Source: Halopelagius inordinatus (GTDB lineage Archaea > Halobacteriota > Halobacteria > Halobacteriales > Haloferacaceae). Taken from it: a stretch of DNA of 64,000 nt. The position numbers and the translations under genes are program-made. The stretch covers positions 1,240,001 to 1,304,000 of the forward strand of contig NZ_FOOQ01000001.1 of assembly GCF_900113245.1 (NCBI RefSeq), given 5' to 3'. This document shows positions 24,997 to 30,347 of the stretch, in pieces; positions within the stretch are counted from its first letter, which is position 1; the number at the start of each line of letters is the position of its first letter. The notes beneath the pieces are model-generated. The model was not told the origin of the DNA, searched no databases, and worked only from the letters and a program-made list of their open reading frames with translations.

Positions 24997-25075
24997 GTGG
25001 GCGATACCGGGCGAAGAGCCATTATACCTGCGGCAGATGGCGTCGAGAGGCGGAGAAACGTCGGCGAAAGCGTCG

Positions 25076-25957
25076 TCACCCGCCGCCGCGGGTCACGTGT
25101 CCGTACTTCAGGATACCGACGAACACGCCGCCGCCGATGGCGTTCCCGAGGGTCGCCAACACGAGGAACTTCGCGTAGTCGAATACCGACACCTCGGGCG
25201 AGAGGAACACCCCGAACAGCACCTCGATGTTGCCCGCGATAGAGTGCGGGAGGTGGAGCAGTCCGATGGAGGCCGTGACGAGCCAGATTATCAGTAATCG
25301 GCTCGTCGTCTCTTGGGCGGCGGCGAGCAACCACGCCAACAGTCCCATGAGCCAGCCCGCGAGGATGCCGGCGACGAACAACCACGTGAGGTCGTGGTCG
25401 ACGAGTTTGTGCGCGATGGTCCCGAACGCTTCCGGGGTGGCGACCCCGAGGTTGGGCATCAAGGTGACGATGAACGCGGTGAACACCGCGCCGCCGACGA
25501 TGTTGCTCGCCCAGACCAACCCCCAGAGACGCATCAGTTTCCGGAACGACGCTCGACCGTCGAGCACCGGCATCACGGCGAGGGCCGTGTGTTCGGTGAA
25601 CAGTTCCGAGCGCGCGATGATGACGAAGATGAATCCGACGGCGTAGGCGCTCGCCAACAGTAGTTCGGTTCCGAGGTCACCGTACCCGCCTTCGGTGAGC
25701 GTGAGTAGAACCGCCATCAACAGCGGACCGAATCCGATGTCGAGACCGGCCGAGAACCCCGACAGCAACAGCCCGGTCCGCTCGCGCTCTATCTCGTGGA
25801 GCCCGGATTCGATGAGCGATTCGAGGATATCCGGGGCGGGAGTCTGCTCTACGGTGGTCGCCGGGTCGGCGTCCCCCACGTCACCCGCCCCCCGTATCGG
25901 CGTCGCTGGGTCCGTGCGCCTCGAATCCCATAACGAAGGCCAGTAGAGAGCGAACAC
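25076..25957 (-). CDS. Formate/nitrite transporter (FNT) family channel
   Basis: A pentameric-channel family member of up to 293 residues with six hydrophobic helices. Visible features are [30 protein letters not shown] (the loop Leu/Phe/Thr region) and [12 protein letters not shown]. The frame opens at GTG 25957; a second GTG at 25879 (VGDADPATT) would remove a proline-rich lead of 26 residues. A TATATC-like element near 25966 fits the shorter form better, so the start is uncertain. Likely substrate is formate, nitrite or another small anion. Confidence 0.88.
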
Positions 25958-26099
25958 GGAAGAAAGATATGGCGGTGCGAACGGCTCTTCGAGCCCTCGC
26001 GTTACGGAGTTTGACGCGCGTCACCTCCCTCGGCGAGAAACGACAACCCGACGGGGGCGCCGTCGTCGCCGCTCTCGGTCGCCGATTCGGACGTGCGCG

Positions 26100-27284
26100 C
26101 TATGCGCCGAGAGGGGATGCAGGGTCAGGCGAACGCGAACGCGCCGACCCCGCAGCGTCGTTCGCCAGCGGAAGTTCGACGGTGAACACGCTCCCGTCGG
26201 GCCCGGTATCCGATAACCGAACTATCCCGTCGTACCGTTCGACCAACGTTCGGACGAGATAGAGGCCGAGTCCGTGGCTTCCGCAACTGCCGTCTGTCCG
26301 TTCGAACAGCGTATCGCGGACGTCGTCCGGAACTCCGGGACCGTTGTCCGCGATGGACACCGTCGCCGTCGTGTCACCCACGTCGACGGTTACGTCCACC
26401 CGAGGCGTCTCGCTTTCGTTGTGCTGAACGGCGTTAGCAAAGAGGTTCACGAACACGCGGGGAAGAAGCTCGCCGGCCATCACGTACACGTCGTCGGGCA
26501 TCGACGCGGTAATCTCGACGTTCTCTCTGTCGCTTCGGGGGTTCTCCAGTACGGTCGTGAGCGTCTCGGTCAGGTTCACCGCTTCCCGGTCGGCGTCTCC
26601 TTGGCTGGCCCGCATCAGCACTTGAATGTCGCGAATGACCTCGGTCATCTCTTGACCCTGTCGGTGGATCCGTTCGAGATTGCGCCGGAGTTCCTCGTCG
26701 ATGTCGTCGTCGTCGAGATGGACGGACGCGTATCCCGTGATGACGTTTGCGGTGTTCAGGACTTCGTGCCGAAGGAGGCTGTTCAGGTAATCGAACCATC
26801 GGCGCTGCGCTTCGGCCTCGTCGGCGCGGATGGCCGCTCGTTCCGCGGTGAGTTCGCGTTGGATGGCGCGCGCCTCGACGATTCCGAAGACGAGACCACC
26901 CACTCCCCCCATCGCGGCCGACGTTCTGGCCCACCCGACGACGCTCTGGAGGGTTCCTGGATACCAGACGACCATCATCGGCGCGTTGACTCCGAGGAAA
27001 ACCGCGATTCCGCCGACGAACCACGTCGCGATGCGCGGGTAACGTTTCGGAGAGAGACCAGTCCTCGCGATGCGGGAGCCACCGTAAACGATGCCGCCCG
27101 AGAAGACGGCGGTCAAGAGGAGATTGAGGAGGAAGTTGCCCGTCAAGAGCGGTTCCACGCGGAGACCGTAGAACACCACCCATTCGACGACGAACGCGGC
27201 AAACAGAAGGATACCGGCTCTCGATATCAACGTCGGTATCTCGTCGGGGGGAAAGACGGACGACAGCCGAGACGCCAGATCCAT
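26100..27284 (-). CDS. Membrane-bound histidine kinase
   Basis: A 394-residue sensor kinase starting MDLASRLSSV. Four hydrophobic segments in the first 140 residues form a membrane sensor domain with almost no external loop. A helical linker leads to the phosphorylation motif LLRHEVLN (H173), then N-box NLFANAVQHN, G1 DNGPGVP and G2 GSHGLGLYL. No adjacent response regulator is present, so it is an orphan kinase here. The ATG at 27332 is in frame but adds 16 AT-rich-encoded residues; I prefer 27284. Confidence 0.9.
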   Translation of the reverse strand: MDLASRLSSVFPPDEIPTLISRAGILLFAAFVVEWVVFYGLRVEPLLTGNFLLNLLLTAVFSGGIVYGGSRIARTGLSPKRYPRIATWFVGGIAVFLGVNAPMMVVWYPGTLQSVVGWARTSAAMGGVGGLVFGIVEARAIQRELTAERAAIRADEAEAQRRWFDYLNSLLRHEVLNTANVITGYASVHLDDDDIDEELRRNLERIHRQGQEMTEVIRDIQVLMRASQGDADREAVNLTETLTTVLENPRSDRENVEITASMPDDVYVMAGELLPRVFVNLFANAVQHNESETPRVDVTVDVGDTTATVSIADNGPGVPDDVRDTLFERTDGSCGSHGLGLYLVRTLVERYDGIVRLSDTGPDGSVFTVELPLANDAAGSARSRSPDPASPLGA

Positions 27285-27588
27285 GATTCGAATATGCCAA
27301 TTGAGAGTAAATAAGTTGGGCAGTATTATCAAATATGATACTAAAACTGAGACGGGAGAGATCCGGATTACAGCGCATCTAGCTGGTACCGTGCCGAAAT
27401 TCGCCTGACAACTCCGAGAAAATATACGTGGTGATAGCGACGGTCCGGTGCTTCGGCGACACCGCGCGTCCCCCCGAGGCGGATTCGCTGCTCAGCTTCG
27501 AGACCGGTGGTCGCCTCGGCGACCGAGGGAAATTTTCGAACCGCCTGCAAACCGGCTCAGACGAAGAAAGGAAAGCAGACGACCGCGA
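27285..27588. other. Intergenic region with kinase promoter and a hairpin
   Basis: About 300 bases between two minus-strand genes. The left part (27290-27345) is AT-rich and holds the likely promoter of the kinase. A perfect palindrome, GGTCGCC TC GGCGACC, lies at 27509-27524. A pyrimidine-rich run just past the stop of the SRPBCC gene (CTTTCCTTTCTTC on the minus strand, about 27562-27575) may end that transcript. The 60-codon frame at 27368-27550 shows no family features and is not accepted. Confidence 0.4.
27509..27524 (-). terminator. Short perfect hairpin downstream of the SRPBCC gene
   Basis: Seven paired bases GGTCGCC/GGCGACC with a 2-base loop, 65-80 bases after the stop of the gene on the minus strand, next to an AAATTTTC stretch. 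Position suggests an mRNA 3' structure, although archaeal terminators rely more on U-tracts than on hairpins. Confidence 0.3.
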
Positions 27589-28050
27589 TTAGGCCGGGCG
27601 CGCCGTCTCAGCGGCTATCTCCGCTTCGATGATGTCCTTGGTGTTCTGGAGGTGGTTCTTGAACTGTCGGTTGTTGTAGCGACTGGCCACAGGTTCGAGC
27701 AGGCGGTCGCGGAGCGAATCCCCGAACTCGTAGTCGGCCTGATGCGTGATCCGGGTCCCGGAGGCGGTCTCCGCGAAGTAGTTGTGTACTTCGCCCTTCA
27801 TGCCGGACCCCTCCATCGCGACCGTCATGTGTTCGTTCGGTTCGACGACGCTCAACGCCAGTTCGACATCTAGCGAGATGCCGAGCAGTTTGTACGTGGC
27901 GCGCATGCGCGCCCCATCGTCGGTCTCTTCGACGATTTCGAGGTCTCGGAGGCTGGCCATCGTTCGGGACCAGTTCTCGGGGTTGGAATCGAACGCGAAG
28001 ACGCGTTCGATGGGCGCTGCGATCTCGACGGTGTGCTCGAAGCTGGGCAT
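27589..28050 (-). CDS. SRPBCC (polyketide cyclase/START-like) protein
   Basis: A 153-residue soluble ligand-binding protein beginning MPSFEHTVEIAAPIERVFAF, the typical first strand and helix of the SRPBCC fold. A central LGISLDVELALSVVEPNEHM, an ITHQADYEF strand and a long C-terminal helix with NHLQNTKDIIEAEI follow. It probably binds a hydrophobic small molecule in the fold cavity; no catalytic residue is evident. Start is the ATG at 28050. It stands alone. Confidence 0.85.
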   Translation of the reverse strand: MPSFEHTVEIAAPIERVFAFDSNPENWSRTMASLRDLEIVEETDDGARMRATYKLLGISLDVELALSVVEPNEHMTVAMEGSGMKGEVHNYFAETASGTRITHQADYEFGDSLRDRLLEPVASRYNNRQFKNHLQNTKDIIEAEIAAETARPA

Positions 28051-28298
28051 TAGTTTCAACTCTCTCGTCAAACCCCTCACGCGCTCCCCTCCGCCACAGA
28101 AACTCGGGCAGCTACGACGGCTGACTACACGAAGTAGGGTCCCTGAGGCAATAAGGAGACCGTACGCCGTACTGACACGTCCGGTGGGTCCAGAGAACCG
28201 AGATGCGATCAGGACCGGTTCAGGACAGCGCGAAGGGCAAGCTTGCGGAGAGTGAAACGTACAGCAGGAAGCGTCAGGTCGGATGGATGTTTGTCGGT

Positions 28299-28565
28299 CT
28301 ATGTTCGCTCGCGGGCCTCGTCGGCGCTCGTGGTGCGCCCCTCGCGGATGCCTTCTTCCGCTTGGAGGAGTGCCACGAGTTCGTCGCGGTCGAACACCGA
28401 GAACTCGGTCGCGTCCCGAAGCGTGTACCGAATGAACTCGCTCCGGCTGTTGAAGCCGCGTCCCTGCCACGTGTCGTCTATCTCGTCGAGGAACGACTGC
28501 GTGACTTTGAAGTTCACCGTGACGATTTCGTCGTCGCCGTCGTTTCCCGTGGCCGCTTCGGACAT
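28299..28565 (-). CDS. Ribbon-helix-helix DNA-binding protein
   Basis: An 88-residue CopG/RHH-type protein: beta strand EIVTVNFKVTQSFLDEIDD, then a helix-turn-helix region GFNSRSEFIRYTLRDA, and an acidic C-terminal tail. It probably binds DNA as a dimer. I used ATG at 28565 (MSEAATGND), two codons inside an in-frame GTG. A membrane protein gene ends 16 bases upstream on the same strand. It could be a stand-alone regulator or an antitoxin; no obvious toxin is adjacent. Confidence 0.85.
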   Translation of the reverse strand: MSEAATGNDGDDEIVTVNFKVTQSFLDEIDDTWQGRGFNSRSEFIRYTLRDATEFSVFDRDELVALLQAEEGIREGRTTSADEARERT

Positions 28566-28581
28566 ACGCACGTGTTACTAT

Positions 28582-28911
28582 CTACCAAGTCTGTTTCGCC
28601 GGGCGGGACAGACCTTTCGTGAGCGTTACGAACAGTAGAACGACGCTGAGCCCCTCTGCCGCGATTGCGGGAAGGACGCGCCAGAACGGTCCGTAATTGA
28701 GGCCCGACGAAGGAGACAGTACCGCGTCTACGTAGCCAAACCGAAGGAGTGTGAACAAGAGGAGTGCGACTACTCCGAGCAACGCGACGAGAGTACCGAG
28801 CGTGGATATTCCTCTCAGAGGGCTACCCCGCCTTCGGAGAAACCACAGCGTCGCCGCGGCGAGAGCAGTTCCCGAGAGAGCAAAGTCGGGTAGCGTGGAG
28901 GGCGGGAGCAT
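28582..28911 (-). CDS. Small membrane protein, unknown
   Basis: A 109-residue protein with three hydrophobic segments (ALSGTALAAATLWFLRR; ISTLGTLVALLGVVALLLFTLL; VLPAIAAEGLSVVLLFVTL) and a short tail. No family recognised. It precedes the RHH gene on the same strand with a 16-base gap, so the two are probably co-transcribed. The coding sequence is slightly AT-richer than the regional average. An AT-rich segment before it (28912-28935) may be the promoter. Confidence 0.7.
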   Translation of the reverse strand: MLPPSTLPDFALSGTALAAATLWFLRRRGSPLRGISTLGTLVALLGVVALLLFTLLRFGYVDAVLSPSSGLNYGPFWRVLPAIAAEGLSVVLLFVTLTKGLSRPAKQTW

Positions 28912-29057
28912 ATATCGACCGAATACGGGCGTCGTTGTCTACTTTCTGGAGTACAGAGATAGATGAAGGAATCGCCCACCGATGGACTAACTGAACAACA
29001 GCCGGAAGTTCTCGATCCGTAAACGCCCGAATCAGGGCTCGAAACGTCCGTTTTCGA

Positions 29058-29093
29058 CTACCGCTTGCTCCGTTGCTCCACCTTGTTCAGGTG
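29058..29093 (-). pseudogene. Displaced 3' end of a chorismate mutase gene
   Basis: Read on the minus strand these bases give HLNKVEQRSKR followed by a stop. The intact chorismate mutase at 30036-30347 ends ELNKVEQRESR and a stop. Eighteen bases coding LNKVEQ are identical in both. Such a second gene end is what integration of an element into the end of a gene leaves behind. Confidence 0.55.
29073..29090. repeat. 18-bp direct repeat, left copy (att-like)
   Basis: TTGCTCCACCTTGTTCAG, identical to 30051-30068 in the same orientation. The flanking bases differ on both sides, so the match is exactly 18 bases. Confidence 0.75.
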
Positions 29094-29227
29094 GCTGAAA
29101 TCCATGATGGATTCTCGTGAAAATAGTGTCTAAGCACGCGCCCAACACCACAGAAATCGGAATATAGAGGACGTGAGTTGGTGTCCTATGTAAATGGATC
29201 TCCGCTGCTTTAGGCCGTTCCAATCGG

Positions 29228-29644
29228 CTAACGTGTGTCGAACGAGTCGATCACGTCGCTCGTCGAATACGTCTCGACGAGAGGCTGTTCGTCGAAATCA
29301 GTAACGTCGCTCCAGACTGCCGCGTCCTCTGCCAGGGCGCACGCGACATAGAGCACGTCGCCGGGGTCTGTGTCACCGATCGCTGCTTCGGCCTCTTCGA
29401 TGTGCGGATAGAACTCCTGGACGGGAACGACCTCGATGTACTGAAACAGGAGGTCGATAAACTGGGCGACTCGCTCCGGACTCATGCCGGACTTCTCGAC
29501 GATCAACTCTGTGTAGTTCCCAATCTCGTCGTAGACGAATTCGGGTGTCAGGAGGTCGGGTTCAAGTGTGACGATGAGTTCACGGGTTTTCGAGTCAGCG
29601 ATGAGTGCGGAGATGACGACGTTGGCATCGACGACCAACTTCAT
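29228..29644 (-). CDS. PIN-domain ribonuclease (VapC-like toxin)
   Basis: A 138-residue PIN-fold protein. The acidic active-site residues are in the expected places: D6 in VVDANVVISAL, E40-type acid in YDEIGNY, and the C-terminal DTDPGDVLYVACALAEDA with a further Asp in VTDFDE. Such toxins cut RNA, usually tRNA or rRNA, when their antitoxin is degraded. It lies 9 bases behind a small RHH/VapB-like gene. It is inside the direct-repeat-bounded patch with lower GC, which suggests recent acquisition. Confidence 0.88.
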   Translation of the reverse strand: MKLVVDANVVISALIADSKTRELIVTLEPDLLTPEFVYDEIGNYTELIVEKSGMSPERVAQFIDLLFQYIEVVPVQEFYPHIEEAEAAIGDTDPGDVLYVACALAEDAAVWSDVTDFDEQPLVETYSTSDVIDSFDTR

Positions 29645-29653
29645 TCGTCGAGG

Positions 29654-29884
29654 CTACTCCGACTCCTCTTCGACGCGTTCGCGTGCGCTCCCGTTGATTT
29701 TATCGGCGATCTCCGCGACATCGCTCTCGGTGAGTTCGCTTCCGGACGTGAGTTCGTCCATCACGTCGAGCGTCTCGATTTTCTCCTGAATAGCCTGTCG
29801 GGTGACCTCGCTCCAGTTGATCTCTGGATGTTGCTCCATTCGGTCTTTGAGATCGTCATCAACGTTGACGGTGATACTGGGCAT
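29654..29884 (-). CDS. VapB-like antitoxin
   Basis: A 76-residue protein starting MPSITVNVDDDLKDRM, a ribbon strand and helix, followed by INWSEVTRQAIQEKIE, a helix-turn-helix-like segment, and an acidic C-terminal part that would wrap the toxin. It lies immediately upstream of the PIN gene and on the same strand, the usual antitoxin-first order. An in-frame start 16 codons upstream adds a non-family N-terminus. An AT-rich element upstream (about 29890-29930) is the likely autoregulated promoter. Confidence 0.85.
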   Translation of the reverse strand: MPSITVNVDDDLKDRMEQHPEINWSEVTRQAIQEKIETLDVMDELTSGSELTESDVAEIADKINGSARERVEEESE

Positions 29885-30035
29885 ACAGGAAACTATGCGT
29901 ACACAGGATGTTGTGTCTTTGGGTTGGGACACAGTAAGAACTGACCGCTAGATTCGCGGTGTTCCTCTTATCCGGACTGAGCGGGGCGTTATTGGAACGT
30001 ATTCGATACGGGTGAGTATCCGGTCTTCCGGCTGC

Positions 30036-30347
30036 TCACCGACTCTCTCTTTGCTCCACCTTGTTCAGCTCGATGAGCAGCCGGAAGACGGCTTTCACCA
30101 GGTTCGAGTCCACGTCGAACCGTTCGGCGTTCTGACCGGCGCGTCGCATCACCTGTTCTTCCTGCCCCTCGTCGGTCGTCGGCAGGTCCCGTTCGTCTTT
30201 CACCTGTGCGACGGTCTCTGCGACGTAGGTCCGTCGGGCGATGAGTTCGACGATTTCGCGGTCGATATCCTCTATCTCCGCTCGCAGTTCGTCGAGCGTC
30301 ATCTCGTCGGGTCGCCGTTCGTCGGTGTCTGGAGTGTCTCGTGTCAT
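30036..30347 (-). CDS. aroQ: Chorismate mutase (AroQ type)
   Basis: Rearranges chorismate to prephenate, feeding the prephenate-dehydrogenase-like enzyme at 7807-8574. The 103-residue all-helical protein has an acidic 25-residue lead, then DELRAEIEDIDREIVELIARRTYVAETVAQVKDE-type helices (active-site Arg and Lys candidates) and ends ELNKVEQRESR. Its ATG overlaps the stop of the shikimate kinase gene by 4 bases. Its last codons carry the 18-bp sequence repeated at 29073-29090, so the current gene end may have been exchanged by an integrated element. Confidence 0.93.
   Translation of the reverse strand: MTRDTPDTDERRPDEMTLDELRAEIEDIDREIVELIARRTYVAETVAQVKDERDLPTTDEGQEEQVMRRAGQNAERFDVDSNLVKAVFRLLIELNKVEQRESR
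30051..30068. repeat. 18-bp direct repeat, right copy (att-like, inside aroQ)
   Basis: TTGCTCCACCTTGTTCAG inside the 3' end of chorismate mutase, coding LNKVEQ on the minus strand. Together with 29073-29090 it bounds about 978 bases that contain only the antitoxin/PIN pair. Confidence 0.75.

Follow-up and report, generated by a model that had tools for sequence, protein, structure and literature searches.

Integrases are known to regenerate the ends of the genes into which they insert; in archaea most of the genes targeted encode tRNAs and some encode proteins (PMC8371274). Tyrosine-integrase islands at gene 3′-ends (tRNA, dusA, trmE and guaA type) supply a replacement end, leave the displaced fragment as a mark of their far end, are bounded by direct repeats and can accrete in tandem. 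CIME and hitcher elements, which are mobilised in trans, keep att-like ends but have no integrase of their own, the enzyme being encoded by same-site relatives. Integrons and CALINs line up small, often toxin-antitoxin (TA)-bearing cassettes in tandem, with a shared site and one fixed anchor, and the order and host of the cassettes change. Archaeal integrons with IntI and attC have been described in metagenome-assembled genomes of nine phyla, and haloarchaea are not mentioned among their hosts (PMC9668308). Finally, SNJ2-type integrases of haloarchaea are accompanied by helper genes, and SNJ2 itself sits at a tRNA end (PMC8371274).

The 3′-end of aroQ, the chorismate mutase gene of Halobacteria, shares traits with each of these systems and differs from each in some respect. 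Compared with the gene-end islands, the unit of Halopelagius inordinatus is only 1 kb long and carries no integrase, whereas the larger elements inserted there have one; the aroQ site bears long same-strand arrays, and a chorismate-mutase target was not found in the review of archaeal integrases (PMC8371274). Compared with CIME and hitcher elements, the cargo is one TA operon, the units are stacked several deep and occur class-wide at one locus, and mobilisation in trans is here inferred. The recombinase associated with the aroQ site belongs to the phage-integrase family and has a partner gene, unlike that of integrons. As in SNJ2-type systems, this integrase gene (INT) is followed in Halobacteria by helper-like genes, for a 174-aa partner protein (ACC) and a 141-aa ribbon-helix-helix (RHH)-like protein, a likeness in gene content. 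No description of aroQ-targeted elements or of such cassette arrays was found in the open PMC literature, which excludes most subscription journals.

The aroQ cassette of Halopelagius inordinatus

The window is the whole stretch of 64 kb analysed here. A first-pass annotation, made from the sequence alone, had proposed that a TA cassette is integrated into the end of aroQ between two copies of an 18-mer in the same orientation. Exact copies of this 18-mer, TTGCTCCACCTTGTTCAG, do lie at 29073-29090 and 30051-30068, both on the plus strand; no further match with up to three mismatches occurs in the 64 kb, where 0.01 matches are expected by chance. The features of the locus are:

25013-30052, no strand: lineage-specific segment following aroQ (from a blastn comparison with 15 kb of the sister species G001)
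28305-28951, minus: second, truncated cassette, with a membrane protein gene (28582-28911) and an RHH protein gene (28299-28571), but lacking the toxin gene and the far core
29058-29090, minus: distal core, a displaced aroQ 3′-end reading LNKVEQRSKR-stop (PSSM score 35.7)
29091-29115, minus: cassette-end arm AGAATCCATCATGGATTTCAGCCAC, directly adjoining the displaced core and fitting the consensus of 100 displaced cores
29228-29644, minus: PIN-domain toxin gene, VapC-like (PF10130 PIN_2, E 2e-32)
29654-29884, minus: VapB-like antitoxin gene, an ORF that is longer with a GTG start (to 29932); weak NF050799 VapB match
30036-30068, minus: aroQ-proximal core site, the last 10 codons and stop, CTGAACAAGGTGGAGCAAAGAGAGAGTCGGTGA (18-mer match; aroQ-end PSSM 48.3)
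30036-30347, minus: aroQ, chorismate mutase, the intact target gene (CM_2 PF01817, E 1e-18; 91% protein identity in G001)

Read on the minus strand, the right 18-mer copy encodes LNKVEQ in ...LNKVEQRESR, the C-terminal end of the intact chorismate mutase, and the left copy belongs to a second, displaced gene end, both as annotated. The comparisons thus place a copy of the aroQ end on either side of the cassette, one reading as a working replacement supplied with the cassette and the other as the old end, pushed away to mark the far boundary, which agrees with the attL/attR-like geometry proposed for an element at the 3′-end of a protein gene. The 978-bp repeat unit was also rightly described as holding nothing except the VapB-like and PIN genes, as encoding no integrase and as lying in lower-GC DNA (54.5%, against a median of 68% over the 0.9 kb that precede the core in array-bearing loci). 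Its two genes have the layout of type II VapBC systems, the small antitoxin gene preceding the PIN gene, with the antitoxin match below threshold (33.5 bits against an NF050799 cut-off of 60), and they are paired without exception in relatives. The unit is among the smallest of its element family. No tRNA gene was found within the 64-kb window. A 20-nt inverted repeat (95%; 30023-30042 and 30070-30089) relates internal VFRLL codons of aroQ to sequence just past the stop codon and could form a hairpin at the aroQ end.

Three features had been overlooked in the annotation, namely the conserved far-end arm, the second, truncated cassette and a break in synteny with the sister species. The truncated cassette shares 74% identity with one found at aroQ in another genus (L162), which runs on into a RelE/ParE-like gene, and its RHH gene is 89% identical to that of L148. 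Nucleotide synteny with G001, the only other species of the genus compared, stops at 30052, within the aroQ-proximal core, and resumes at 25013; the segment in between, of which the truncated cassette is a part, has no nucleotide similarity by blastn to the corresponding 7.1 kb of G001. In that species a single core at aroQ is followed by DNA unlike that of the window. These 7.1 kb of different DNA from aroQ to the resumed synteny (L310; G001:C2:418041-425182) contain no recognisable displaced cores.

Displaced aroQ ends across Halobacteria

Several further genomes of the family also have the PIN gene immediately downstream of aroQ. For a wider survey, 100 aroQ loci were fetched and scanned with a matrix built from the final 33 nt of the gene; 80 loci (L091-L170) were taken in E-value order, regardless of arrays, and 21 were chosen because they held the PIN gene or the 18-mer, were near relatives, or were the window itself. 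At least one displaced aroQ end lies downstream in 31 of the 80 family loci, one extra weak match (score 9.2) being excluded from this count, and most of the 21 chosen loci likewise have displaced ends. Every displaced end is on the aroQ strand. In controls, a single position out of 809,198 exceeded the lowest PSSM threshold (8), and downstream copies at 25/33 identity or better accompany 23 of 100 aroQ ends but none of the 579 other ORF ends. Of 391 Halobacteria genomes, 46 contain the arm-core junction; they represent 7 families and 23 of the 86 genera, and reversed patterns used as controls gave no hits. In Natrialbaceae and Halobacterium sp. DL1 the junction also accompanies aroQ copies carried on plasmids. 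On these large plasmids (L204-L208), aroQ is accompanied by shikimate kinase, PIN/AbrB cassettes follow in most, and two genera share an identical AbrB protein (WP_049889560.1). Conservation of the core sequence is partly due to coding constraint.

Uninterrupted sites can be compared with interrupted ones. In G118, G150, G111 and G123, aroQ is directly followed by a common native flank. In G151, G113 and G042, this flank is separated from aroQ by an insert of 1234, 713 and 821 bp, respectively, made up of a cassette with a displaced end, and the three cassettes are different. Further empty and filled pairs are G146 with G128 and G005 with G006. The single-core empty sites called for in the annotation thus exist in related genomes, and only the exact one for the window's own flank was not found among the relatives examined. 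Where the core is doubled without the TA pair, the displaced ends bound other cassettes; they do not lie in unrelated genes.

Cassettes and their exchange between hosts

In 119 loci, 99 core-to-core cassettes were read, with a median length of 1.09 kb, up to six cores per locus and a GC content of 56% as opposed to 68% upstream. Relatives of TA toxins (four PIN types, MazF and RelE/ParE-like proteins) are present in 60 of the 99, and other cargo includes an alpha/beta hydrolase, CNNM/CBS proteins, methyltransferases and a transporter-like protein. Certain lengths recur, 713 bp in six loci and 1232-1237 bp in eight, and the VapB-PIN unit of about 1-1.25 kb is found at aroQ in several families.

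Homologous cassettes extend exactly from core to core across genera or families, and most of the 26 core-to-core homologies join different array positions. In most cross-genus pairs the cassettes are more alike than the aroQ genes of their hosts (93.5 vs 82.2%, 92.6 vs 79.5%, 92.4 vs 81.8% and 88.3 vs 80.8%), with one exception (80.6 vs 82.0%), whereas within Halorubrum the two identities are about equal. The PIN proteins located at aroQ cluster together whatever the host family (2 label changes, compared with 10.5 in shuffles).

PIN homologues away from aroQ have no aroQ core beside them, save for one weak site in L057, so that the presence of the TA pair is not enough to predict the site. 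In most VapBC copies away from aroQ (L033, L035, L036, L039, L041, L042, L044-L046, L049, L051, L054 and L058), ATGGGCGCTGCAGG occurs, exactly or with one or two mismatches, about 124 bp before VapB. This sister VapBC lineage appears to use a tRNA-Arg end, since ATGGGCGCTGCAGG forms the terminal nucleotides of the adjoining tRNA-Arg(TCG) gene in L035, L036, L054 and L058. In L074 (G063:C48), a VapBC cassette and an amidohydrolase-like region lie between two complete aroQ copies.

Structure of the cassette junctions

Cassette far ends have in common the arm TATnATGGATTTCAGCTAC, located before CTGAAC, and the consensus over 100 junctions is TaT.ATGGATTTCAGCTAC immediately ahead of this motif. 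A weaker second motif, with GTTTCAGGGC, forms a right arm after the stop codon. This motif is limited to sites with a cassette behind them and is not apparent in the window. C occupies position 1 of the core in 48 of the 65 displaced ends, compared with 34 of 99 intact ones (p 1e-6), which indicates that this position travels with the element and that the exchange takes place to its right. The elements carry their own aroQ tails, some quite different in sequence, and hence the exchange should also lie to the left of the variable tail. The crossover is therefore likely to fall within TGAACAARG.

INT-ACC elements at the same site

The annotation had proposed a search for the core beside integrases or other cargo, and such loci were found at aroQ elsewhere. 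INT, a tyrosine recombinase, and ACC, a partner protein of about 170 aa, are encoded directly beside aroQ in five genomes (G109, G053, G383, G412 and G281). In Halorubrum californiense DSM 19288 (G109) and Halolamina pelagica CDK2 (G053), aroQ is followed by INT (379-400 aa) and then ACC (174-177 aa); INT of the former matches PF00589 (E 2e-9), and the protein of 141 aa encoded after its ACC looks ribbon-helix-helix-like by eye. In G412 and G281, INT ends 110 bp and 170 bp from aroQ, respectively. The same arm and core close the elements at 38.0 kb in G109, 37.6 kb in G053 and 32.5 kb in G383, the last of another family, and only an INT remnant is left in an aroQ cassette of G023. The 38-kb element of Halorubrum californiense (L255-L256, G109:C25:122800-162500) is rich in defence-type genes, with relatives of Hma, helicases, among them a PLD-helicase/DrmD-like one, and relatives of Orf5/HEC-06.

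The closest ACC copies, those of the five genomes, are all beside aroQ, G342 being set aside with its aroQ outside the 18 kb read; within 1.5 kb of the next ACC copies (36% identical or less) there is no aroQ core. INT has no match in IMG/VR and the phage collection and matches plasmids at 24-33% identity only. ACC was not found in phages, the core and arm plus core have no matches as exact patterns in IMG/VR, and phage records gave no convincing att match. In G083 (L065/L273, G083:C1:2230000-2249900), a lone arm plus core lies about 320 bp past a different XerC-like integrase, far from aroQ and near a gene like that for the replication factor C large subunit. It is possibly the attP of another element; as a unique locus whose integrase lacks close relatives in the family, it is not relied on here.

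Proposed mechanism and alternative explanations

The explanation that we prefer, at a probability of roughly 70% for the whole including a recombinase in trans, is that a whole family of site-specific elements in Halobacteria uses the aroQ 3′-end for attachment. Genome comparison shows the geometry, the shared ends, the arrays, the empty sites and the exchange between hosts: the far-end arm is common to the other aroQ cassettes and the integrase-bearing elements, and cassettes stack into same-strand arrays. A tyrosine recombinase would join a circular cassette, with an arm-core-arm site, to the aroQ core by exchange inside the stretch given above, so that the newest cassette would be next to aroQ and older ones further out. 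The enzyme would be supplied in trans by an autonomous element of the INT-ACC type, since neither the cassette nor its genome has the INT-ACC pair: in the genome of the window ACC has no match, and the closest INT-like protein is 29% identical and encoded elsewhere. Mobilisation by a same-site relative is consistent with the shared arm and core. INT may well act on the small cassettes, perhaps at present, although its rarity beside aroQ in comparison with the common cassettes means that another enzyme could move the small ones. TA cargo would be favoured because a TA pair penalises loss of the unit. A bolder form of this explanation, which we regard as tentative and somewhat short of even odds, is that Halobacteria have an active gene-capture platform, analogous and unrelated to integrons, in which INT-ACC shuffles arm-core cassettes, mostly of TA type, in trans through the aroQ 3′-entry, with autonomous islands of 32-38 kb at the same site.

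The main rival concerns the shuffling. Cassettes might be rearranged only by homologous recombination between aroQ ends or arms in polyploid haloarchaea, an integrase having acted once or rarely and the small units not being current substrates. Arm-plus-core repeats of about 60 bp would suffice for this, INT is rare beside aroQ, and many arrays are decaying, as with the truncated PIN genes in G066, G094 and G009; homologous recombination between repeated cores could indeed explain part of the shuffling. As the only process it is unlikely, given units of constant 713, 733 and 1234 bp in several species with their boundaries at the core, uniformly oriented cores, arms common to integrase-bearing elements and a right-arm motif confined to junctions with a following cassette.

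Whether the window unit is a remnant or a minimal cassette moved in trans had been left undecided in the annotation. Deletion that leaves the ends in place is common in genomic islands, and the large elements at the same site as well as the INT remnant in G023 would fit an aroQ island internally deleted down to its TA pair and ends. This origin is improbable, because several families have the same VapB-PIN unit at aroQ, and deletions that happened independently would not end at identical points; moreover, the aroQ-located PIN proteins cluster by location and are not scattered among the other copies. Since core-to-core units of near-constant length recur in other genera and array positions, the window unit is most likely a minimal cassette, and its movement would have been in trans.

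That the displaced ends are leftovers of aroQ duplication with no link to mobile DNA could be suggested by the second whole aroQ 4.3 kb downstream in G063, and is very improbable in view of the shared arm, which is not aroQ sequence, to the left of displaced cores, the absence of such behaviour at all 579 other gene ends and the core-to-core matches between cassettes of different species. A bona fide integron with IntI, attI and attC cassettes, as the tandem, TA-rich single-operon cassettes with a repeated site might recall in the manner of CALINs (PMC7923331), is rejected, because IntI (TIGR02249) is above cut-off in 0 of 25 array genomes, the arm-core-arm sites fold no better than shuffles (36 junctions, mean z -0.53 for the top and -0.48 for the bottom strand) and what is repeated is the 3′-terminal part of aroQ, a gene of the host, not attC.

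Significance for Halobacteria

If aroQ is the attachment site of such an element family, this would explain the spread of TA systems in haloarchaea as bare one-operon units, and also why the end and the flank of aroQ are hypervariable. Mobilisation in trans of cassettes without an integrase is usually only inferred, and a named recombinase pair with defined sites would make it directly testable, with Halorubrum californiense and Haloferax volcanii as culturable hosts. The same pair and sites would offer a natural integration tool for haloarchaea.
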